From IMG/VR virus record IMGVR_UViG_3300045995_000065, positions 1 through 64,000 of that record: a stretch of DNA of 64,000 bases; one strand, given 5' to 3'. Source of the DNA: a virus. The notes under the pieces were generated by a model. The model ran no database searches, was not told the DNA's origin, and saw only the letters and a program-made list of their open reading frames with translations. Made by a program: the position numbers and the translations under genes. Shown one piece after another: positions 6,460 to 40,925 of the stretch (within the stretch, counting starts at the first letter, position 1; every line of letters starts with the position of its first letter).

Positions 6460-6510
6460 ACTTAACGTAGGACAATTTAACTGCATATATTGGGAAACCG
6501 CTGGACTTAA

Positions 6511-6516
6511 TAAATA
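6511..6516 (+). promoter_or_regulatory. Late-type TAAATA promoter box
   Basis: TTAATAAATACTGC on the plus strand, 22 nt before the ATG at 6538. Matches the T4 late -10 consensus TATAAATA at 7 of 8 positions. Confidence 0.55.
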
Positions 6517-6537: not shown

Positions 6538-6888
6538 ATGGCAACTCTAGAAACACGAACCGCAGTACTCGAAAAAATCGCAGAGTCACACGACAAACGC
6601 ATTGGCGATATGGAAGATTTCCAGCGTAATGTTGTGGATCGTCTTGACCAAAAGATCCAAATGGACTTGGCATCACAAATCAGCTTAGAGCGAACTCTAA
6701 CTCGTGCTGTTACGAGTTTAGACACATTATCTGTTGCTGTTAAAGACGCAGGGATTAAAGCTGACGAAGCATCAACGATGGTTAAGAAACACGAGACAAT
6801 TGGGTTAACCATAATGAAGGTTGGCACTATTCTTGCGGTAGTGATCTCGGCTGGATGGGCGGTTTTAAAATACGTTCTTCCACAGTAA
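6538..6888 (+). CDS. Coiled-coil protein with C-terminal membrane anchor
   Basis: 116 aa. A long heptad-rich N-terminal region (residues 1-80) is followed by one hydrophobic helix (IMKVGTILAVVISAGWAVL, about 92-112). This layout resembles XhlA-type phage membrane proteins and some lysis accessory proteins, but there is no lysis gene nearby. Transcribed from the TAAATA box at 6511 together with the BLUF gene, 8 nt downstream. Confidence 0.6.
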   Translation: MATLETRTAVLEKIAESHDKRIGDMEDFQRNVVDRLDQKIQMDLASQISLERTLTRAVTSLDTLSVAVKDAGIKADEASTMVKKHETIGLTIMKVGTILAVVISAGWAVLKYVLPQ

Positions 6889-6896
6889 GGAGTCTT

Positions 6897-7370
6897 ATGC
6901 TAGTCCAATTAATTTACGTCTCGACACCAGTTGCGGAAAAGATAGGGGAGGTTAATGCTTCCTTGCCTGGTAACCAACTACGTAACAAAGAACGTGGCAT
7001 CAGCGGTTTAGTGCTGTCTCACCCTAAGTTTTACTTGCAAATTTTAGAAGGTGAACGCATTGCGGTAAGCAAGTTATTTCACAAGATTATGTGCGACAAG
7101 CGCCACCAAGACGTTACTATCATACGCTTCCAAGAAGCCATGCGCTCTGACTTTTCTCGTTGGGACTATGCTATCATTGACGAAAATCTTGACACGGACT
7201 TTTACGAGAACATACGTGATTTACTTGATTTTGAAATCGACTTTAAGCGAGATATGTCAAGCTCGTGTGCAATGGCTGTATTGCGCAGAGCATTTGCAAT
7301 TATAACAATGAAGCAAATTCCCAACCGCCGCTCAACTGATATTAAAGACTTACCTCAGGTCCGTGCTTAA
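6897..7370 (+). CDS. BLUF-domain blue-light sensor protein
   Basis: 157 aa from ATG 6897, with AAGGAG 5 nt upstream. Residues 1-95 match the BLUF (blue light using FAD) fold. Tyr7 lies in the first strand LIYVS, Asn30 sits four residues before GISG, and Gln48 lies in FYLQILEG. These three correspond to the flavin-network residues Tyr21, Asn45 and Gln63 of AppA. Trp89 matches AppA Trp104, while Tyr91 replaces the usual Met106. A C-terminal extension (about 95-157) is helical and of unknown type. The gene follows a coiled-coil membrane protein and overlaps the opposing glycosyltransferase-like gene by 29 bp. Confidence 0.85.
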   Translation: MLVQLIYVSTPVAEKIGEVNASLPGNQLRNKERGISGLVLSHPKFYLQILEGERIAVSKLFHKIMCDKRHQDVTIIRFQEAMRSDFSRWDYAIIDENLDTDFYENIRDLLDFEIDFKRDMSSSCAMAVLRRAFAIITMKQIPNRRSTDIKDLPQVRA

Positions 7371-8643
7371 GGAAAACTTCTGACTGCGGCGGTAGCGTTG
7401 GGACAAAGTAACTCAATTGGTCAACTCCAATTTCGTCTAGTACCATTATAGGTAAATTACTCCAGTGGGCATACTCAGGCCAATCACTGCCTTTAACAGT
7501 GTCGTAAAACATCTTCCATTCAGCATCTTTTAATTCTGTTTCTTTTATTAATGCTCTAGCAACTAAGCCCTCACGCATCTTGCACACATCCGCAGTGCCA
7601 CGATTCAGCAATGAGTTCATGAGTGTTGGCACATTAAATTTAGTCGCAGTATCGTTTACGATTTTTATTGCGCCTGCTGCAAGCAATTCAAATTGTTTTT
7701 TGTTTTGCTCAATGACTTCTGATATCTCGTCATCATTTTCTTGATGATGCAAAATCCAATCTATGTTGCTCAGTGCATTGTCAACTTGTGCCTTGGTAAG
7801 TTCATTACCTATTTCCACTGTGGAAGGGAAAAACTTAGTGAATGCTGAGACTCCGATGGACTCTAAATATTCATGCGTACCAGGGATCGCAAGCAGTACA
7901 AATGGGTGACTGAATGCGATTGCCTTCCATACCTTTTCTGTTATGGTGGGCATAGTTCGAGTGGCAGATTCAGACACTAAACTGACGCGGGTATCAGTGT
8001 ACATTGATGGGTCGACAATATCACAAAAAAATTCAAAATCTTTAAACCCAACACGAGTGGTTGGTATGTTAGTGGGTTCCAAATCAGTTATGCCACGATG
8101 CTGCAAAAGATATTGCATTAGCTCGCCGTCGTCTAAATCCCATTGGGTGATAATGTTTTTACTCTCGTCGTCGAATTTTTCATTCGCATACATGAACGAG
8201 TATTTCAACTTAGATATAATACCAGACTTAACCGCAGATGCCAGCGCACCAATTCGGTTTAAGTAATGCATTTTTCCAGTTAAGAACAATGCTTTGTCAG
8301 CATTGCGATTCCACTCAGTGTCTGGTGGGTTAGACAACACCTTGACAAACATTGCCCAGTAACTAATATAAACGATGTCTATACCTTCCCACAGGTGCGA
8401 AAATTGCTTGTACTGATCGTCAGCGATGACTGTTAGTTTCTTGTTTTTATTTTTGGCCAATTCACGTATGCATGTGAGTGTTTCTATTACCTCTGGGGTA
8501 CCAGGAAAGAACTCGTAAATTAAAAAAGCTATAACATGGTCTGCCTCACTGTTGGAGTCAAACCATGCTTCTAGCTCAATGCTTAATAGTTTTGGGTGGG
8601 CGAAACACATAAAAGAATGTAATTCCAGCAATGACGTTATCAT
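7342..8643 (-). CDS. Glycosyltransferase-like protein (GT-B C-terminal motif)
   Basis: 433 aa. The segment TEKVWKAIAFSHPFVLLAIPG (about 240-262) resembles the donor-binding helix-loop of GT10/exostosin-like glycosyltransferases (T/YEK..kAi...PfvLl..pg). It is shared with the plus-strand gene at 13945, so the two look like distant paralogues. The ATG at 8643 sits 4 nt after a TAAATA box, so the mRNA may be leaderless. The 3' end overlaps the BLUF gene. Acceptor and sugar are unknown. Confidence 0.55.
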   Translation of the reverse strand: MITSLLELHSFMCFAHPKLLSIELEAWFDSNSEADHVIAFLIYEFFPGTPEVIETLTCIRELAKNKNKKLTVIADDQYKQFSHLWEGIDIVYISYWAMFVKVLSNPPDTEWNRNADKALFLTGKMHYLNRIGALASAVKSGIISKLKYSFMYANEKFDDESKNIITQWDLDDGELMQYLLQHRGITDLEPTNIPTTRVGFKDFEFFCDIVDPSMYTDTRVSLVSESATRTMPTITEKVWKAIAFSHPFVLLAIPGTHEYLESIGVSAFTKFFPSTVEIGNELTKAQVDNALSNIDWILHHQENDDEISEVIEQNKKQFELLAAGAIKIVNDTATKFNVPTLMNSLLNRGTADVCKMREGLVARALIKETELKDAEWKMFYDTVKGSDWPEYAHWSNLPIMVLDEIGVDQLSYFVPTLPPQSEVFLKHGPEVSL

Positions 8644-9345: not shown

Positions 9346-10298
9346 TCTAGTATCCCAAAGTTTGCCCAATTAGCGGCACCCAGACAAACCCAACCCATTG
9401 GTCCGCCCAAGGTTGGGTTTGTGTTGAATACAATGTGACCTTTTGTGCTGGTGTATGATGGCGGCTGATTTGCCGCACTCAGCTTAACACTGCCTATACG
9501 CAAGTCGGATATTTCAGTTGTGCCATCAGTATTCAATGTGATGTTATGTTTGTTGTTGGAAGATAATACCACAGCTTGTGCACGTGGTGTACCAATCTTA
9601 GCAACGCCCTCTTTATCCTTAGACACAGTGACTTCTACTTCTTGATCCCAAATACTGAGTGCAGCAGATGGCTCTAAAGTATTGATGCCCACTCGTTTCT
9701 TCGTTACGTACAGTGTATTGGCAAGCACTGATTCTCCGTCTACTTGTAATTCACGCAACGCTCCTACTTTTTGCAAAAAGCTTTCGGTAATATCAAAGCC
9801 AAGCATCTTGCCTTCAATTACCGTAACACCATCAATAGTAATCTTCTTTAAGTCGATTCCGTCTGCTTTGATAGTGTCGGTTACTTTTTGCGTGAAGCCT
9901 GCAAACATGTCAGCTTCCAATGATGCTTGAACATTAGCAGTAACCGTTGATGACAATTGTTTGTAAAACACAGAATCTTCTGGTACCGGGCCTTCAACAA
10001 TGAACTTGCCCTTGACAGTTAAGTCCTTGGTAAGCAAATTGTTTTCCACGACGGTAACATCGTCCATCAGTGTAAGTACGCATTCAGATGCACGATCGTC
10101 TATACCAGTAGAAGAGAAGTTAGCAATGATGCCGCCTTGAATCTGCTCGCCAGTAATCGTGATCTCGCGCTGTCTAACCGCTACAGCAGGAATGCTTGCA
10201 GTTGGATATTTTTCGCGCTTAAGGAGTTTTGCTGTAACAAAATCCTCGATGTATTGTTTAATCTCGTCTGTCAGTTCTGTTTGTGTTGAATCGGTCAT
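9342..10298 (-). CDS. Putative virion/tail-fibre-associated protein
   Basis: 318 aa. The segment TLYVTKKRVGINTLEPSAAL matches the fibre motif (v.vg.kvGIgt.~P~a.L) seen in phage tail fibre proteins. The C-terminus GPMGWVCLGAANWANFG resembles glycine-rich fibre tips. N-terminal residues 1-30 form a helix and then beta-rich repeats follow. It overlaps the upstream gene by 41 nt. Adhesion or fibre role is inferred. Confidence 0.55.
   Translation of the reverse strand: MTDSTQTELTDEIKQYIEDFVTAKLLKREKYPTASIPAVAVRQREITITGEQIQGGIIANFSSTGIDDRASECVLTLMDDVTVVENNLLTKDLTVKGKFIVEGPVPEDSVFYKQLSSTVTANVQASLEADMFAGFTQKVTDTIKADGIDLKKITIDGVTVIEGKMLGFDITESFLQKVGALRELQVDGESVLANTLYVTKKRVGINTLEPSAALSIWDQEVEVTVSKDKEGVAKIGTPRAQAVVLSSNNKHNITLNTDGTTEISDLRIGSVKLSAANQPPSYTSTKGHIVFNTNPTLGGPMGWVCLGAANWANFGILD
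9384..9422. repeat. 12-bp perfect inverted repeat inside fibre-like gene
   Basis: Arms 9384-9395 (ACAAACCCAACC) and 9411-9422 (GGTTGGGTTTGT) flank a 15-nt loop near the 3' end of the gene at 9342. A strong hairpin would form in either transcript. Confidence 0.6.
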
Positions 10299-11034
10299 AG
10301 GTCTCGTCGAATTTAATGCTAACTACGTGTTCGTAATTCTTCTTGATAGGGCTCTTGTACATCAAATTCTTGTGTACAATGAAGTCGTCTGCGCCTGCGT
10401 CCATACTAAACTTTGCTAACTGTTTGAAGTACATTGTGTGGCGTTTGAATGAGCCATACACTGTCAACGAATCAGTCGCATTGTTAATCTCGTATACTTT
10501 GGATTCCCATTGTGTACGACTTGTTGTCGTCCAATTATGGAACTCATTGAATACCAAACTGTCTGCACCGTTACGGATAACTGCTGGTGTCGAAAACTCT
10601 CTATCTTTGAAATCTTGATTTTTGTAATCGCGTAATGTACTTATCACAAATTCTTTAGCCAAAGAACAAATCTTGCTCACTTTGTCAATTTGAGTTTGTG
10701 AATTGGTGGCATAGGTGAAATACTCATCAGCAGCCACGACGACATCATAAGACTTTTCAATCGCAGCCAATTGTATGTAGGTGTACTTGACTTTTTTCTC
10801 GTCTAAATAAGCACGGGCAGCATCACTTATCTCAGTGACGAATATTTCCTGCTTTACATTACTGCTAATAATTGCTGGATTAAATCCGCAAAAAAGCACA
10901 GTACCAGGAATGAAATTGTAGTAGTCATAAACACCGTCTAGTATAGCTTGTTTTTTAAGTATGATCTCGGCTGCTTTGCTCGAAGCCTTTAATGCGGATA
11001 AGTTAGCGTCAGTATAGTTTGTAAAATCAGTCAT
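10258..11034 (-). CDS. Methyltransferase-like protein (Rossmann-type N-terminus)
   Basis: 258 aa. GTVLFCGFNPAIIS (about 44-57) followed by IFVTEIS and YDVVVAADEYF spaced along alternating helices and strands resembles a class I SAM-dependent methyltransferase core, with a degenerate glycine motif. The C-terminal 100 residues are a separate strand-rich part (WESKVYEI, YGSFKRH). Adjacent to the fibre-like gene, so a virion-linked role is possible. Moderate uncertainty. Confidence 0.45.
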   Translation of the reverse strand: MTDFTNYTDANLSALKASSKAAEIILKKQAILDGVYDYYNFIPGTVLFCGFNPAIISSNVKQEIFVTEISDAARAYLDEKKVKYTYIQLAAIEKSYDVVVAADEYFTYATNSQTQIDKVSKICSLAKEFVISTLRDYKNQDFKDREFSTPAVIRNGADSLVFNEFHNWTTTSRTQWESKVYEINNATDSLTVYGSFKRHTMYFKQLAKFSMDAGADDFIVHKNLMYKSPIKKNYEHVVSIKFDETYDRFNTNRTDRRD

Positions 11035-11059
11035 GCCATTATTGTAATAGTTGTGTAAC

Positions 11060-11065
11060 TATTTA
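11060..11065 (-). promoter_or_regulatory. Late-type TAAATA promoter box
   Basis: CCATAAATAGTT on the minus strand, 25 nt before the ATG at 11034; it overlaps the stop of the amidinotransferase gene. Confidence 0.5.
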
Positions 11066-11980
11066 TGGCGAGCGCACTAAATCTAACGTAACGCAATGGA
11101 AGCCACCGCCCAACGTGCGTGAATGACGCAATTCAAGGGGAATAGATTCAATTTTGTACTTCTTTAGTGTTTGCATTAACGATGATTGTTTTTTATCTAC
11201 TATTACCAAATTAGGATTGACCACTAGCATGTTCATGGCAATCCATTTGCTTGCGTAAGGATACTCGTAAAATTGTTGCGGGACTACATCAGAATGTGAC
11301 ACCCAAATCTTTTCCCAATTTTCAAAAGCCTTAGGAACAGTTGTTGGATGCACACGGGATGCATTGAGCATTACGAGACCTTCACGTAGCGGCACTATAG
11401 TAGAGTCAATATGTACGCCGCTGTAAAAGTTACAAGTTTCTATTGTAACATGGGGGAGGATGCTTTGCAACCAGTCAGCAGCCGCTTTGTTGCCACTTGC
11501 GCTTTCCAGCACGACATAGGTGTCATTTAGTCTGCATACGTTAGCAGCATCAAGAACCATACCTTTGTTGCGCGGCATTTCGTAAACTACGCCACGCTTA
11601 GTGACATCTTTGAGTGCTCTGGTTTCCATGTCCCTGCATGGATACATCATTACTGGGTCAATGATCTTTGTGCCCGCAATGAGCAGCCTGTCTCGCGGAC
11701 AGTAATTGTACATACCACCTTCATAACCAAAGTCCATTTCTGCGGGACGCAGGACTTCTACGCCAAGGTTGCGAAGTGTGGTTGAGAGGGTTTCTAAGTC
11801 CTCGTTTGATTCGTCAACAACGTGCTTAGGTACACGACCAGACGGAACAGGAGTTTCGTGCCAGGTTGTTTTATATTTTTCTTCAGCAAAGACTGGATCT
11901 TTGGTGGGCCAATGTGCGTGGGTGGCATCACCTACTACGCAAACTTTAAGAGGGTCCCATTCGTTGTGTGAGTGTATCAT
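11063..11980 (-). CDS. Amidinotransferase-like enzyme
   Basis: 305 aa, about the length of an amidinotransferase catalytic domain. The catalytic Cys is Cys296 in TLGGGFHCVTLDL near the C-terminus. The His/Asp partners lie in SGVHIDSTI (about 195) and near EGGMYNYCPRD. This guanidino-modifying-enzyme family (glycine and inosamine amidinotransferases) moves an amidino group from arginine to an amine via a Cys-amidino intermediate. The acceptor here is unknown. It shares an operon with a 2OG oxygenase and a nucleotide-sugar dehydrogenase, so an amino-sugar or other small-molecule modification is plausible. ATGA overlap with the upstream gene. Confidence 0.8.
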   Translation of the reverse strand: MIHSHNEWDPLKVCVVGDATHAHWPTKDPVFAEEKYKTTWHETPVPSGRVPKHVVDESNEDLETLSTTLRNLGVEVLRPAEMDFGYEGGMYNYCPRDRLLIAGTKIIDPVMMYPCRDMETRALKDVTKRGVVYEMPRNKGMVLDAANVCRLNDTYVVLESASGNKAAADWLQSILPHVTIETCNFYSGVHIDSTIVPLREGLVMLNASRVHPTTVPKAFENWEKIWVSHSDVVPQQFYEYPYASKWIAMNMLVVNPNLVIVDKKQSSLMQTLKKYKIESIPLELRHSRTLGGGFHCVTLDLVRSP

Positions 11981-15100: not shown

Positions 15101-16015
15101 ATGAAAATAAATGAGATCATCTGCGAAGACGTGTCACAAGGCGACTTTGCTCAAATAGAGCGATTTGCTGATGCGCTATGGGGCAGGCTTGGCATTGACG
15201 TAAAATTTACTTGGCACTTCATGCAACGTGTAAACGATGTGCGCAACGGTAAGCCTATCACCACGGCTGAGCTTATTCGTATGTTCAAGAAGGAATATAT
15301 GAAGTACGGCAAAGATGTGTCTAGCATGGACAACTCAGTAGAAGCAGTCTTCAAAGATGCGATGACTGCTATCAACTTGCCATTCGTTATCAAAGACACC
15401 CCGCAAGGTAAAGAGCTTATCGCCAAGACTACGATGCGTAAGCCTAACTTTAAGACTCGTCCCGGCCAACCAACGTATGTCATTGACGATGTTAACTTGC
15501 CTAAAGATCAGTGGGAGACATTGATCTCTACTGCTGACAAAGAGGAGGTTGGTGACAACCTTGTGCAGTTAGTGCAGCAAGCATATAACGCTACACCTGA
15601 AGGTAGCTTTGTAAACAGTATGAAAGACGTCATCCCGTCTGACTGGGAAGTAATTGACTGGGACGGCGACCAAAGTATCAATGCCACAGTATTCTTCCGC
15701 AAGCCACGTGGCAATGAAAACTGGCAAGGCTATAAGATACAAGGGTTGGGTCACGATGGCCAACGTGCGTCTAAGGATCGCGCTATCAAGAAGATGATAC
15801 AGATGCTTGAGACTCGTGGTTATTGGTTAGAAGGATCAGACGCAATGCGGGCAGTGCTTAAACGTTACCAAGTCATTGCAGTGTCAAACGAGCAATTCCT
15901 GCAGCGTCTGTTCAATGACTCACAGCTACGCATGGTGAACCACGACACATACCAACGTAAACTAAGCAACCGTGTCATCACTGAATCTGTCTTTGGAAGG
16001 CCTATTCTGCGATGA
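15101..16015 (+). CDS. MKINEI-type protein, candidate internal head/injected protein
   Basis: 304 aa. The N-terminus MKINEIICED resembles the capsid-targeting sequences of T4 internal proteins (short helix ending I/L-x-E, e.g. Alt MELITELFDE). It is followed by a domain (residues 30-130: KFTWHFMQRVNDVRNGKPIT) that I recall at the ends of other large-phage proteins. The C-terminus has WQGYKIQGLGHDG and SKDRAIKKMIQML. First gene of a five-gene plus-strand operon. Function unknown. Confidence 0.55.
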   Translation: MKINEIICEDVSQGDFAQIERFADALWGRLGIDVKFTWHFMQRVNDVRNGKPITTAELIRMFKKEYMKYGKDVSSMDNSVEAVFKDAMTAINLPFVIKDTPQGKELIAKTTMRKPNFKTRPGQPTYVIDDVNLPKDQWETLISTADKEEVGDNLVQLVQQAYNATPEGSFVNSMKDVIPSDWEVIDWDGDQSINATVFFRKPRGNENWQGYKIQGLGHDGQRASKDRAIKKMIQMLETRGYWLEGSDAMRAVLKRYQVIAVSNEQFLQRLFNDSQLRMVNHDTYQRKLSNRVITESVFGRPILR

Positions 16016-16842
16016 AGATAAACGAGATCATTACTGAATTGCGCAAAGCAAAACCTCGCGAACCAAAAGCAGGTGATACAACTCCGCACGATTACAATCC
16101 TGGGTGGGAGACACTAAACTACCTTAAAGAGCAAGCATTCAAACAAGGTCAGCGTTTAGCTGAAAGCTATCAGTTATTCATGCCACGTAGAAACAATGGT
16201 GCGCAGCCAGCTCGTGATCGCAGGATGGCAAATATAGGAAACAAATGGGCCTGGGACGAAACTGATCCTACACAGCTTAAGCCGCAGTACGCAAGGTGGG
16301 AGCAGGGACAAAAGGATCTAAGTCCCAATGGTATGCAAGATGACGAAGTGACGGAAGCAGCACCAATACTAAAACCAGGTAAGGCAGAGTCTCCCCCTGG
16401 CAATAACAAACCACACGCTGACCTATGGACAAGCACTGCTAAACGTGGTGGTGATGGCGCTTACACAAGTGATTGGGTACGCTATGTCAATGATGCAGGG
16501 CACGATTGGATGGCACCAAAAGGTTACCTATACAAAGTCAAACCTGGTGCATTGATACTAGAATTAAACAGCGACCACGATGCTGAACGTATCTATCAAG
16601 CATTTGAAAGTTTAGGCACAGCACAACCTATTGACTACAGTAGTTCATACGGTAGATTAACAAAAGCATTTCCGTGGGATCAAGTTGTAAAACATTTTGA
16701 TGGTGTGCGCCACGGGGGATACAATAGTCGTGACGATTTTATATACGGTTGGGATTGTGAATCAACTGCATGGTTTAACACTAGCTTCTTAACATTGGTA
16801 GCGGAGGTTCCTATCTCCCGCTACAGGGAAGACGAATACTAA
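16012..16842 (+). CDS. MKINEI-type protein, possibly ART-like C-terminus
   Basis: 276 aa. N-terminus MKINEIITELRKAKPREPKA, then a basic/Pro region, a possible cleavage site DDEVTEAAP near residue 115, and a folded C-terminal part. The latter has DLWTSTAKRG, GYLYKVKPGALILELNS and FDGVRHGGYNS, which loosely follow the strand order of ADP-ribosyltransferase-like folds in phage effectors. ATGA overlap with the gene before. The fold call is weak. Confidence 0.45.
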   Translation: MKINEIITELRKAKPREPKAGDTTPHDYNPGWETLNYLKEQAFKQGQRLAESYQLFMPRRNNGAQPARDRRMANIGNKWAWDETDPTQLKPQYARWEQGQKDLSPNGMQDDEVTEAAPILKPGKAESPPGNNKPHADLWTSTAKRGGDGAYTSDWVRYVNDAGHDWMAPKGYLYKVKPGALILELNSDHDAERIYQAFESLGTAQPIDYSSSYGRLTKAFPWDQVVKHFDGVRHGGYNSRDDFIYGWDCESTAWFNTSFLTLVAEVPISRYREDEY

Positions 16843-16843
16843 A

Positions 16844-17773
16844 ATGAAGATAAACGAGATCTTAACAGAAGAAGAGGCGCCGATCCTTCCCAAGCGAGTA
16901 ACTGACAAGGAGTTGGTTGCGCTATTGGGTAAGGGTAAGACCAATGCTATGCTTCGTCACCCTTGGTTCCAACGCTACTCCAACTATCAAAAGGCATACC
17001 GCTATGCAAAAGACAAATGGGGCTTTGTCACTGTTGACATGTTCCCTTTCTTTGTAGAGCACAATAGAACTCCTGATGGCGGCATTCGTCCTACCATCTA
17101 TGTGTCGTTCATCTTCTCTTACTCTGGTACCAAGGTAGTGCAAGCACATCAGTTTACACGCCCATTGGTGCCTGATGAGTTTGAATTGAATAACAAGATT
17201 ACTGGTGGGTGGCAGCACGGCACGACTTGGAAGGTAGACAAAGTAAAAGAAGATACTTACCAACCACCAGAGCTACACACTGGTGACAAGATTCTCAAGG
17301 GCAAGTTTAAGAACAGTCCCGCCACGATTAAAGGCTTCTCTAAAGACAAACACAACCAGCCAGTGCTAAAGACTGACAAAGGTGCAGTGCAATTGTTCAA
17401 GCCCCGTGTCACGAAGTTGATGACAAACGAATCAGTGATGCCTGGTACTTACGTGCACGAAACATCTCCAGAGAAGGCTGCGCAAATTGCAAAGATGGGG
17501 TTCAAGCCATCGTACGAAGGCATCTTCTTTAACCGCGACGGTACAGGTTACTCGGGTGGTGGTTACGGTGGCGCATTGATAACAGTGCAGCTAAACATCA
17601 CTAAGTTACTTGACATGGACGGTGACGCAGAAATGCCAGAGGACTTAGACGAGTTTGCTGATGGTGAAGAGATTGCCCAGTACGCACGTAGTCACGGTTA
17701 CCAAGCTTGGGCTGATGACTTACAAATCGCTGTACTTGACCCACGTTGCATCAAAATCGTGAGCATTAAATGA
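16844..17773 (+). CDS. MKINEI-type protein with ADP-ribosyltransferase-like domain
   Basis: 309 aa. N-terminus MKINEILTEEEAP. A middle domain (GDKILKGKFKNSPATIKG, LFKPRVTKLM) resembles segments of other large-phage proteins, from memory. The C-terminal domain (about 200-309) follows the ART-like plan: YVHETSPEKAAQIAKMGF (His strand and helix), GIFFNRDGTGYSGGGYG, LITVQLN, GYQAWADD, IAVLDPRCIKIV. T4 packages its ADP-ribosyltransferase Alt with a similar N-terminal signal. A packaged enzyme that modifies host proteins is therefore a reasonable inference. Confidence 0.55.
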   Translation: MKINEILTEEEAPILPKRVTDKELVALLGKGKTNAMLRHPWFQRYSNYQKAYRYAKDKWGFVTVDMFPFFVEHNRTPDGGIRPTIYVSFIFSYSGTKVVQAHQFTRPLVPDEFELNNKITGGWQHGTTWKVDKVKEDTYQPPELHTGDKILKGKFKNSPATIKGFSKDKHNQPVLKTDKGAVQLFKPRVTKLMTNESVMPGTYVHETSPEKAAQIAKMGFKPSYEGIFFNRDGTGYSGGGYGGALITVQLNITKLLDMDGDAEMPEDLDEFADGEEIAQYARSHGYQAWADDLQIAVLDPRCIKIVSIK

Positions 17774-22322: not shown

Positions 22323-22544
22323 CTATTTTACTACTGTAAACTTTTCAGTAAGTTTTGGTGGGTTCATAATGAAGAACGACAAATCTACAGGATTCGAAAA
22401 ATGGTAATTAAGCTCGTAACCAGCAAGGTCAACTTCAAATTTGATTTCGTAATACGTTAGCCATGTAAGCATTTCACTTAGTACCATCATGCGCTTTGCC
22501 TTCCGCATTGACCCGTTTGGAATAATGAATTGAATATAGTCCAT
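22323..22544 (-). CDS. Small hypothetical protein downstream of clpX
   Basis: 73 aa from ATG 22544, overlapping the clpX stop as TGATG. MDYIQFIIPNGSMRKAKRMMV then a strand-rich part. No known motif. Translation coupled to clpX, so it is a candidate ClpX partner or adaptor by position only. Confidence 0.55.
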   Translation of the reverse strand: MDYIQFIIPNGSMRKAKRMMVLSEMLTWLTYYEIKFEVDLAGYELNYHFSNPVDLSFFIMNPPKLTEKFTVVK

Positions 22545-23734
22545 CAATGTGCATCGCGTACAGTTTGTTCCGTGATCTCTAAGGCAGCGATTCCTTGCGC
22601 TTTCATCTCAGTTAAAGCGTACATATAGGGCATTAACGTGCGTTCCAGGATGCTTTTCAGCCCTCTTGCGCCCGTGCCCTGCTCGTGTGCTAACTCTGCA
22701 CAAGCTTGTATTGCACCGTCTGTGAATTTTAATTCTACGTCGTCAGACTCAAAGTAGAACTTCATCTGTGCGAGTAAGTTGTTGCTTGGTTCCTTAAGAA
22801 CACGAACAAAGTCTTCTACTGTTAGCGCATCAATTGGTACTGCAATAGGGAAACGACCAGTGAACTCTGGGATCATACCAAACTTGATAAAGTCATCAGG
22901 AATGAATGCAGCCGTGTTTACTTTGGTCGCAGTGTTACCAAATCCAATAGCAGAACCTTTTTGTCTACGTTCCACGATCTTGTCAAGGTCAGAAAATGCG
23001 CCGCCCGCAATGAATAAGATCTTGCTTGTGTCAATCTCAACCTGATCCATGGCAGGATGCTTCTTACTGCCGCCCACGCTTACTTTGCATATAGTGCCTT
23101 CTACCAATTTTAGTAATGCTTGCTGGACACCTTCGCCAGACACATCACGGGAGATACTTGCGCTCTCAGACTTCCTGCCAATCTTATCAACTTCGTCTAA
23201 GAAGACGATTCCGTGTTGGCATCGTTCTACATCATTATCTGCTGCACTTAGTAGGCTGCTAACGACACTTTCAACATCGTCGCCCACATACCCTGCTTCA
23301 GTTAGTGTAGTCGCATCTGCTACGACGAAAGGAACATTGAGGTAACGTGCGATTGTCTTAGCAAGCAATGTTTTGCCTGAACCTGTTGGCCCAAAGATAA
23401 GGATGTTAGACTTCTCTAACTCAACAGGGGACTCGAAGTAAATGCGCTTATAGTGATTCACCACGCCCACAGCGATAGCAATCTTTGCTGCATCCTGTCC
23501 GATAACGTACTGGTCAAGATAGGCTTTGATCTTCATCGGATCTAAAGCCTTCGTGATCTTTTTATCTTTGCGTAGAGCATCGTTGTGCTCTTTGTTTAGT
23601 ATGCTTGCACATAGTTCAATGCACTCGTTACAAATTCCCGCATCATTTGCGACAATAAGTTTGTCAACGTCTGAGCGGGACTTCCCGCAGAAGTTACAGT
23701 GAACTAATGGTGTCAGTGACAGATTTGAGTTCAT
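22544..23734 (-). CDS. clpX: ATP-dependent unfoldase ClpX
   Basis: 396 aa. N-terminal zinc domain Cys13, Cys16, Cys35, Cys38; Walker A GPTGSGKT (115-122); pore loop GYVGDD (148-153); Walker B IVFLDEVDK (176-184); sensor GARGLKSILE. The ClpP-docking IGF loop is present at 263-265 (KGSAIGFGNTA). The usual RKH pore loop reads KKH (GGSKKHPAMD). It should therefore be able to feed ClpP, phage or host. Overlaps the upstream gene by 41 nt; ribosome site weak. Confidence 0.95.
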   Translation of the reverse strand: MNSNLSLTPLVHCNFCGKSRSDVDKLIVANDAGICNECIELCASILNKEHNDALRKDKKITKALDPMKIKAYLDQYVIGQDAAKIAIAVGVVNHYKRIYFESPVELEKSNILIFGPTGSGKTLLAKTIARYLNVPFVVADATTLTEAGYVGDDVESVVSSLLSAADNDVERCQHGIVFLDEVDKIGRKSESASISRDVSGEGVQQALLKLVEGTICKVSVGGSKKHPAMDQVEIDTSKILFIAGGAFSDLDKIVERRQKGSAIGFGNTATKVNTAAFIPDDFIKFGMIPEFTGRFPIAVPIDALTVEDFVRVLKEPSNNLLAQMKFYFESDDVELKFTDGAIQACAELAHEQGTGARGLKSILERTLMPYMYALTEMKAQGIAALEITEQTVRDAH

Positions 23735-38099: not shown

Positions 38100-38432
38100 T
38101 TACTTGAACAGAATAAACGCCAGTGCTGTAGCTTGTGCGATGAATCCAGCGCCGTTTGTTACGACATTGAACATGTTCTTTAGCAGAACTGCGCGAGCAA
38201 ACATAAGCAGTAGTCCAGTCCAAACGAACAGTACCATGTCAAGTGATGGAGCACGGTCTGTTAGACCAGCCATCATTGCCATCATAGTAGGAACTGTTAC
38301 GCAGTGCAGCACCACAATTGCCAACCATTCAAGCGTATCCGCTGTGATCTTTGGGAAGTGATTGAATGCAAAGTTCAAAACTTTTTGGGTCATTGGTACC
38401 ACAGTGGTACCTGCGTCATTAACTTCGTCCAT
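38100..38432 (-). CDS. Three-helix membrane protein, candidate holin
   Basis: 110 aa with three hydrophobic segments (about 35-58, 67-86, 90-110). It follows directly (9 nt) the SleB-type lysin gene. The size and three-helix topology fit class I holins, but no sequence family is recognised, so the role is by context. Confidence 0.45.
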   Translation of the reverse strand: MDEVNDAGTTVVPMTQKVLNFAFNHFPKITADTLEWLAIVVLHCVTVPTMMAMMAGLTDRAPSLDMVLFVWTGLLLMFARAVLLKNMFNVVTNGAGFIAQATALAFILFK

Positions 38433-38441
38433 TTTGATTCC

Positions 38442-39005
38442 TTACTTGTAAAAGATGTGGTGGCCAATTTGTGTAAGCTTTGGCTTACCCCAACCTGGGT
38501 TGATGTAGTCTGCGTGATAGAACATTGCTTCAGTCAGACCAGGCAGTCTAAATTCTTCCAACAATACTTTCTTTGCTACGGCTTCGCTTTCGGCGTAATC
38601 CGCCGTGTGAATTGGTTTGACGCGAGACTTAGTGTCGCATACCCAGCTAAACTGGCATATAACCTTTTCGTAAATTTTGTTCTTTTGGTAAATGACGCCG
38701 CATACGCCGTTACCGAACTTTCCAGACGCTACTCTGTTCATAGTCACTTGCGCGACTGCTACTTTACCTTCGAAGGGTTCATGGCCTGCTTCGTTGTAAA
38801 TATTTTGCGAGAGGCAATCTAATTGCGCTTCACGCTCTGCTGCTGTTACTACTGCTGTACCCGAATTGATACCGCGTAGGCTGTCTAGTTTCAAATGTGT
38901 AACATGTGCCAAAATGTACATCACTAAAACGAATCCAAGCAATGCTAGTGCATTACGTGTGACCTTTGTCCAGTTGACCTGGATTGGGTTTTCCGTTGCT
39001 GTCAT
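38442..39005 (-). CDS. SleB/CwlJ-type cell wall hydrolase (endolysin)
   Basis: 187 aa. One N-terminal membrane segment (residues 19-36, NALALLGFVLVMYILAH). Hydrolase_2 domain follows from about 60: CLSQNIYNEAGHEPFEGK with the likely catalytic Glu72, then VAVAQVTMNRVASGKFG and CQFSWVCD. These enzymes are lytic transglycosylases that cut peptidoglycan. The N-terminal helix may be a signal anchor, allowing export without a holin. AAAGGAG precedes the start. Confidence 0.85.
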   Translation of the reverse strand: MTATENPIQVNWTKVTRNALALLGFVLVMYILAHVTHLKLDSLRGINSGTAVVTAAEREAQLDCLSQNIYNEAGHEPFEGKVAVAQVTMNRVASGKFGNGVCGVIYQKNKIYEKVICQFSWVCDTKSRVKPIHTADYAESEAVAKKVLLEEFRLPGLTEAMFYHADYINPGWGKPKLTQIGHHIFYK

Positions 39006-40274: not shown

Positions 40275-40925
40275 TTATAACATTCTTGGATTAAGTTCTC
40301 GCATTCTACGAGTATTGAAAAATGAGCGTGTTTCAGCATATGATGCAGACTCAGAAATAACATATTGCCACTGTTGAAAATTAATATTGTCATCTTGGAA
40401 GTACTGAAGTAGCTCTTCCTCGGAAGTAATTTCAATGAATGATTGCCCAGGCTCTTTATTATTGTACACTGAAATTTTGTGGCCCTGAGCCAATAATCGT
40501 TGCCATATTTTGATGCCATCGTCACTAAGTTGCCTGTCACTCATCAACCGAATAGAATTTACTGACCCTGCAATATTTTTCCTGTCAGCCAATACTGCAT
40601 CGTACAAATCAGTGGCAAACGGTGGCCGACCTTTATTAAATTTACCTACGGCATTCACTATTAATGCTTGCGGCCCTTTAGTAAATTCGATAGCTAACAG
40701 TATATTGCCATTTTTTTCATACCAATAGTATACAGTTTGAACACCTTCTATCTTCATCAGCCCATTACCTAAATTTACAGGAACAGACCCGTGCTTAATT
40801 CGATCTTTTATCCCGTATGCGACAGTATCAGCCAATTCAAAAGATCCGATTCCCTCGGGCATTTCAGTTAGCCAAGTGGACTCAAAATCAGCTCTACTGT
40901 TTCTAACGACCTCAGTGATTTTCAT
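40275..40925 (-). CDS. MKITEV-type protein, candidate internal head protein
   Basis: 216 aa. N-terminus MKITEVVRNSRADFESTW resembles MKINEI capsid-type signals, and LTEMPEG near residue 19 offers a possible L-x-E processing site. The C-terminal module NSIRLMSDRQLSDDGIKIWQ, HKISVYNN resembles segments I recall in other large-phage proteins. Separated from nrdB/grx only by gene order. Confidence 0.45.
   Translation of the reverse strand: MKITEVVRNSRADFESTWLTEMPEGIGSFELADTVAYGIKDRIKHGSVPVNLGNGLMKIEGVQTVYYWYEKNGNILLAIEFTKGPQALIVNAVGKFNKGRPPFATDLYDAVLADRKNIAGSVNSIRLMSDRQLSDDGIKIWQRLLAQGHKISVYNNKEPGQSFIEITSEEELLQYFQDDNINFQQWQYVISESASYAETRSFFNTRRMRELNPRML

Follow-up and report, generated by a model that had tools for sequence, protein, structure and literature searches.

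PixD (Slr1694) and Tll0078 of cyanobacteria are the short BLUF proteins most similar to the phage protein described here. The contact of PixD with its partner PixE, a response-regulator-like protein, changes with light, and the PixD oligomer is itself light-sensitive, passing from decamer to dimer. BLUF domains bind FAD and undergo a reversible red shift of about 10 nm under blue light. Photoactivation of BLUF proteins needs a Tyr and a Gln but not the Asn, and mutation of the Gln abolishes it (review, PMC5899715). Meanwhile, Met93 of PixD couples the photochemistry to the output: the M93A variant retains the red shift, yet light no longer induces the conformational change, and the protein acts as though locked in the signalling state (PMC5899715). 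In viruses, BLUF genes were reported in 2023, in one sentence, on two large scaffolds of 270 and 496 kb from rain (PMC10564846).

The window, that is, the whole stretch of 64,000 nucleotides analysed in this study, is part of a 72,236-base IMG/VR record. It encodes a BLUF protein that shares the fold, the length class and the residues Tyr, Asn, Gln and Trp with PixD and Tll0078, which were its top matches among the solved structures, with the C-terminal helices aligned. It differs from them in being phage-encoded, in having Tyr at the equivalent of Met93 and in its identity of about 21–28% over the structural match. The partner encoded next to it is a membrane coiled-coil protein, unlike PixE, and a PixE-like response regulator was not found as the BLUF neighbour in the window, where only the adjacent gene was considered. 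Since the neighbour is a membrane protein of helical structure and matches no family, the pair was not classed as a PixD–PixE system. Other short bacterial BLUF proteins (those of Proteobacteria, BlsA, BlrB) have the domain and the pocket residues in common with the phage proteins, but the latter branch apart from them as a clade, are variable at the Met position and are accompanied by a partner gene not found in the bacterial loci. The rain scaffolds resemble the window in carrying PF04940 on large viral contigs; the likeness is one of description, and these scaffolds were linked to a Flavobacteriaceae genome (PMC10564846).

The BLUF gene and the gene upstream of it

The locus contains the following features:

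6508..6516, + strand: TAATAAATA, a motif resembling a T4 late promoter, with a TAAATA core that lies 27 nt upstream of the partner start
6538..6888, + strand: partner gene, 116 aa, whose product is predicted from AF2 and hydropathy to be a long helix, probably a coiled coil, that ends in a membrane segment near the C-terminus (about residues 92–110)
6887..6893, + strand: ribosome-binding-site-like stretch with GGAG upstream of the BLUF start, read from the sequence
6897..7370, + strand: BLUF gene, whose product of 157 aa is of the short PixD-like kind, with the BLUF domain at about residues 2–93 and C-terminal helices at 100–140 (Pfam, AF2 and Foldseek)

The two genes are separated by a gap of 8 nt, lie on the + strand and are flanked by genes of the − strand. 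The GGAG is located 5 nt 5' of the ATG of the BLUF gene. A longer reading frame opening at 6855 was rejected as an unlikely start; the start at 6897 was preferred because the proteins of the relatives begin at the same MLVQL/MLIQL. A convergent gene of 433 aa (7342–8643), to which no function was assigned, overlaps the 3' end of the BLUF gene and is missing at that place in L017, the nearest relative of the window.

The profile HMM check showed a significant match of the window protein to the BLUF family PF04940 over residues 2–90 (E 9.5e-19; 67.8 bits, above the curated Pfam cut-off of 25 bits). In a PDB sequence search, every match at E < 0.06 was a BLUF protein; PixD, BlrB, Tll0078, OaPAC and AppA were among the proteins returned by the PDB searches, and the profile match to Tll0078 extended into the C-terminal helix. 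The AlphaFold2 model, computed from a 16-sequence alignment, had a mean pLDDT of 83 and the order b1-a1-b2-b3-a2-b4-b5 followed by C-terminal helices, predicted at residues 100–107 and 122–140 of this stand-alone BLUF protein. The Foldseek comparison with the PDB confirmed the ferredoxin-like BLUF strand order of the model; its top match was PixD/Slr1694 (2hfo; E 9.9e-11, TM 0.83 by target), with Tll0078 likewise at the top of the matches. The statement of the preliminary description that a phage encodes a 157-aa BLUF protein is therefore supported by the profile, the fold and the residues. No viral predicted structure matched the model at E ≤ 0.001 in Foldseek, and no match to the protein was found among defence systems. 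The protein is matched by PHROG 19899, which is unannotated.

The partner was modelled by AF2 as a single long helix, and its hydropathy over residues 92–110 was 2.01. No recognised family was found for it in the family searches. A match to LeoB (E 0.0075) was set aside as weak and attributed to the coiled-coil composition.

Conservation of the gene pair in phage contigs

When the partner was used as a bait in IMG/VR, three contigs were recovered, L017, L018 (the L004 contig) and L019, all of which carry a BLUF gene immediately 3' of the partner. A BLUF-based pattern independently recovered the same contigs together with a fifth member, L030, in which the partner lies directly upstream. The same two-gene cassette is thus present in 5/5 phage contigs, with gaps of a few nucleotides or an overlap between the genes, and the association with a membrane coiled coil put forward in the preliminary description is conserved in all of them. 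Identity to the window proteins was 55–87% for the partner in the aligned members and 30–41% for the BLUF proteins, and the five phage BLUF proteins formed one clade with a support of 95 in a quick tree. Across 84,980 species genomes of bacteria and archaea, patterns derived from the partner alignment, whose sensitivity is limited, detected no partner, nor was one found in a set of 119 bacterial BLUF loci. Because the two genes stand side by side, probably share a transcript and are kept together, their proteins most likely interact, although gene adjacency is the only ground for a physical contact.

A BLUF pattern search of IMG/VR returned 13 contigs. Twelve IMG/VR contigs (L005–L016), several of them from isolate genomes, carry BLUF genes outside the clade, and some of these may be prophages or host flanks. 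Four matches to the partner patterns in IMG/VR (L020, L022, L024 and L025) were rejected, being without a relative of the partner or of the BLUF protein. Searching IMG/VR with one protein at a time, either P0001 or a BLUF consensus written by hand, gave no matches. On the viral contig L004, two genes resembling multihaem cytochromes c7/c3 (9674–10399 and 10459–11139) lie near the cassette.

The BLUF gene diverges much faster than its neighbours. Between the window and L017, the BLUF proteins are 41% identical (dN 0.55), as against 87% for the partner and 65–90% for the other neighbours (dN 0.06–0.28). We do not claim positive selection, because the synonymous sites of both the BLUF and the partner gene are saturated.

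The preliminary description held that there is no established phage blue-light receptor. This needs qualifying in view of the BLUF genes on the rain scaffolds (PMC10564846) and of the match to the unannotated PHROG. Named phage records, 50,697 in all, yielded no genuine BLUF gene; the only matches were in CAKLQH020000004.1 and CAKLQF020000002.1, both named 'Acinetobacter phage MD-2021a', and the former was rejected as a phage gene since the stretch read is bacterial chromosome by gene content. BLUF was not mentioned in the jumbo-phage papers examined. From these negative results, the brief rain report and the unannotated PHROG, we conclude that the conserved cassette of BLUF and membrane protein seems undescribed in the literature searched, which left most subscription papers and all preprints outside.

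The flavin pocket and the output position

The window protein retains Tyr7, Ser9, Asn30, Gln48 and Trp89, including the photoactive pair Tyr7 and Gln48 and the flavin-side Asn30. The positions given previously for Tyr7, Asn30, Gln48 and Trp89 proved right, as did the replacement of the usual Met by Tyr, which is Tyr91, in strand 5 together with Trp89. Across 5/5 phage BLUF proteins, Tyr7, Ser9, Asn30, Glu51, Gly52, Ile64, Asp67, His70, Phe86 and Trp89 are invariant. Invariance was concentrated in the hallmark columns of the family (10/22 versus 4/70 of the other columns; Fisher p 5e-5). The family, the fold, these residues and the conserved gene pair were all established computationally. As Tyr7 and Gln48 are retained, photochemistry is expected in the window protein, and it most likely binds FAD and responds to blue light.

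The output-coupling position is much less uniform. For comparison, 119 bacterial BLUF proteins were gathered with a pattern that left the Met position unconstrained; 117 of them have Met there, and Tyr, Phe or Ala occurs in none. In the five members from phages, the residues are Tyr, Phe, Met, Ala and Met. The relative encoded in L019 (8017–8448) carries His in place of the essential Gln, and in addition G34 is changed to Asn, G37 to Ser and R69 to Lys. It is predicted to be inactive as a BLUF photoreceptor, which makes it a candidate for a natural light-blind variant.

Such variation raises the question of whether the BLUF fold survives as a module that binds the membrane partner or a host protein, flavin-loaded or flavin-free, and whether light has ceased to be the signal or is so in some cases only. 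The protein would then be constitutive, like PixD locked in one state. The variable Met91 position, the change of Gln to His in L019, the fast divergence of the gene and the locked state of PixD M93A (PMC5899715) all speak for this explanation. What argues against it is that the Tyr–Gln pair is kept in the window protein and in 3/4 relatives and that Asn and Trp are kept in 5/5, because drift at 30–41% overall identity would be expected to erase them. We regard the binding module as possible but doubtful; the balance of evidence favours a working flavin pocket with a variable output.

The quick divergence would also fit a changing target, as if the phage BLUF protein imitated or acted as a decoy of a host BLUF protein and rewired a host blue-light pathway (e.g., attachment, motility or stress response) during infection. 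BLUF proteins are common in Proteobacteria, judged by phage kinship to be the likely host phylum. However, the phage-specific partner gene is always adjacent, which suggests a dedicated effector, and the phage BLUF proteins form a single clade rather than scattered captures from hosts, so that we consider such mimicry unlikely.

Probable late expression, genome context and the proposed light response

The T4 late promoter is TATAAATA, and the TAAATA upstream of the partner gene resembles it. Within 120 nt upstream of 101 gene starts, in a gene list partly filtered by hand, TAAATA occurred 27 times versus about 4 expected. In the window and L002, TAAATA(C) was seen 48 times overall, 27 of them upstream of a start. 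It is a probable late promoter element of the T4 type in this phage group. In 4/4 testable cassettes, the motif lies 27–62 nt upstream of the partner (window 27, L004 38, L019 30 and L030 62 nt). From the enrichment and the motif at the cassette, late expression of the pair is plausible. Of the two-gene late operon described earlier, the two-gene unit thus stands, while 'late' is supported by TAAATA, short of proof.

The partner is small, membrane-located by prediction and probably late-expressed, which would suit a light-dependent regulator of lysis timing, with an antiholin-like membrane protein gated by BLUF. Nevertheless, the lysis genes are found together 31 kb from the pair:

38100–38432: multi-helix holin candidate, adjoining the endolysin in the lysis cassette (38100–39005)
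38442–39005: endolysin, Hydrolase_2, with an N-terminal hydrophobic segment

A direct role in lysis is therefore without positional support. The partner also lacks a convincing holin-family match, the best one being only phrog_689 (E 0.87), and a function as holin or antiholin in lysis timing appears very improbable.

The DnaB-like helicase and UvsW of the window are 45–52% identical to those of the jumbo myoviruses PA5oct, Atu_ph07, Phosso and a Vibrio phage. We conclude from this kinship that the contig is a piece of a jumbo phage genome and not bacterial, the phage being a myovirus with PA5oct and Atu_ph07 among its relatives. Other phage genes encode a ribonucleotide reductase, ClpP, a ClpX-like ATPase, a tail spike and the endolysin. 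Bacterial contamination, an assembly chimera or chance similarity, suggested by the two Acinetobacter records, is scarcely credible: contamination is already contradicted by the synteny with L017, a contig from a different sample in which the genes flanking the cassette are kept, the 237-kb L019 contig bears relatives of terminase and UvsW, and the Pfam E value speaks against chance.

Some further observations were made on the genome. The ClpP and the ClpX-like ATPase, which has a zinc finger, are encoded at 909–1523 and 22544–23734 and possibly make up the phage's own ClpXP protease. A similar short leader (MKINEI, MKITEV or MRLQEL), perhaps a targeting signal, opens several different proteins (window 15101–17773 and 40275–40925; L019 6800–7489). 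The opening motif WDPLKVC.VG is common to the proteins of window 11063–11980 and L002 5792–6919, which are apparent paralogues; the former has no Pfam match.

We propose that the PixD-like short BLUF protein binds FAD, is responsive to blue light and would relay its state to the product of the gene directly upstream. This partner would be a helical coiled coil in the cytoplasm, held to the inner membrane through its C-terminus, and both proteins would be produced late from a promoter of the T4 type. Light would change the binding of BLUF to the membrane coiled coil, as it changes the contact of PixD and PixE, and a membrane-linked step late in infection would be adjusted in this way. FAD binding, photochemistry, physical interaction, late timing and any effect on infection are what we infer here, and we give the explanation as a whole an even chance of being correct. 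With somewhat less than even confidence, we suggest that a clade of jumbo phages senses light with two proteins of its own, a BLUF receptor and, working with it, a phage-specific inner-membrane coiled-coil effector, and that blue light alters late infection in this way.

If the window protein is photoactive, the natural variants, with Tyr, Phe, Met or Ala at the output residue and His at the essential Gln, would allow testing of how the signal leaves the flavin pocket. The cassette would then be a compact new pair of BLUF and membrane protein, and a virus would be sensing light by a receptor of its own, so that the outcome of infection could be tied to light exposure. Some phages may thus read light late in infection.
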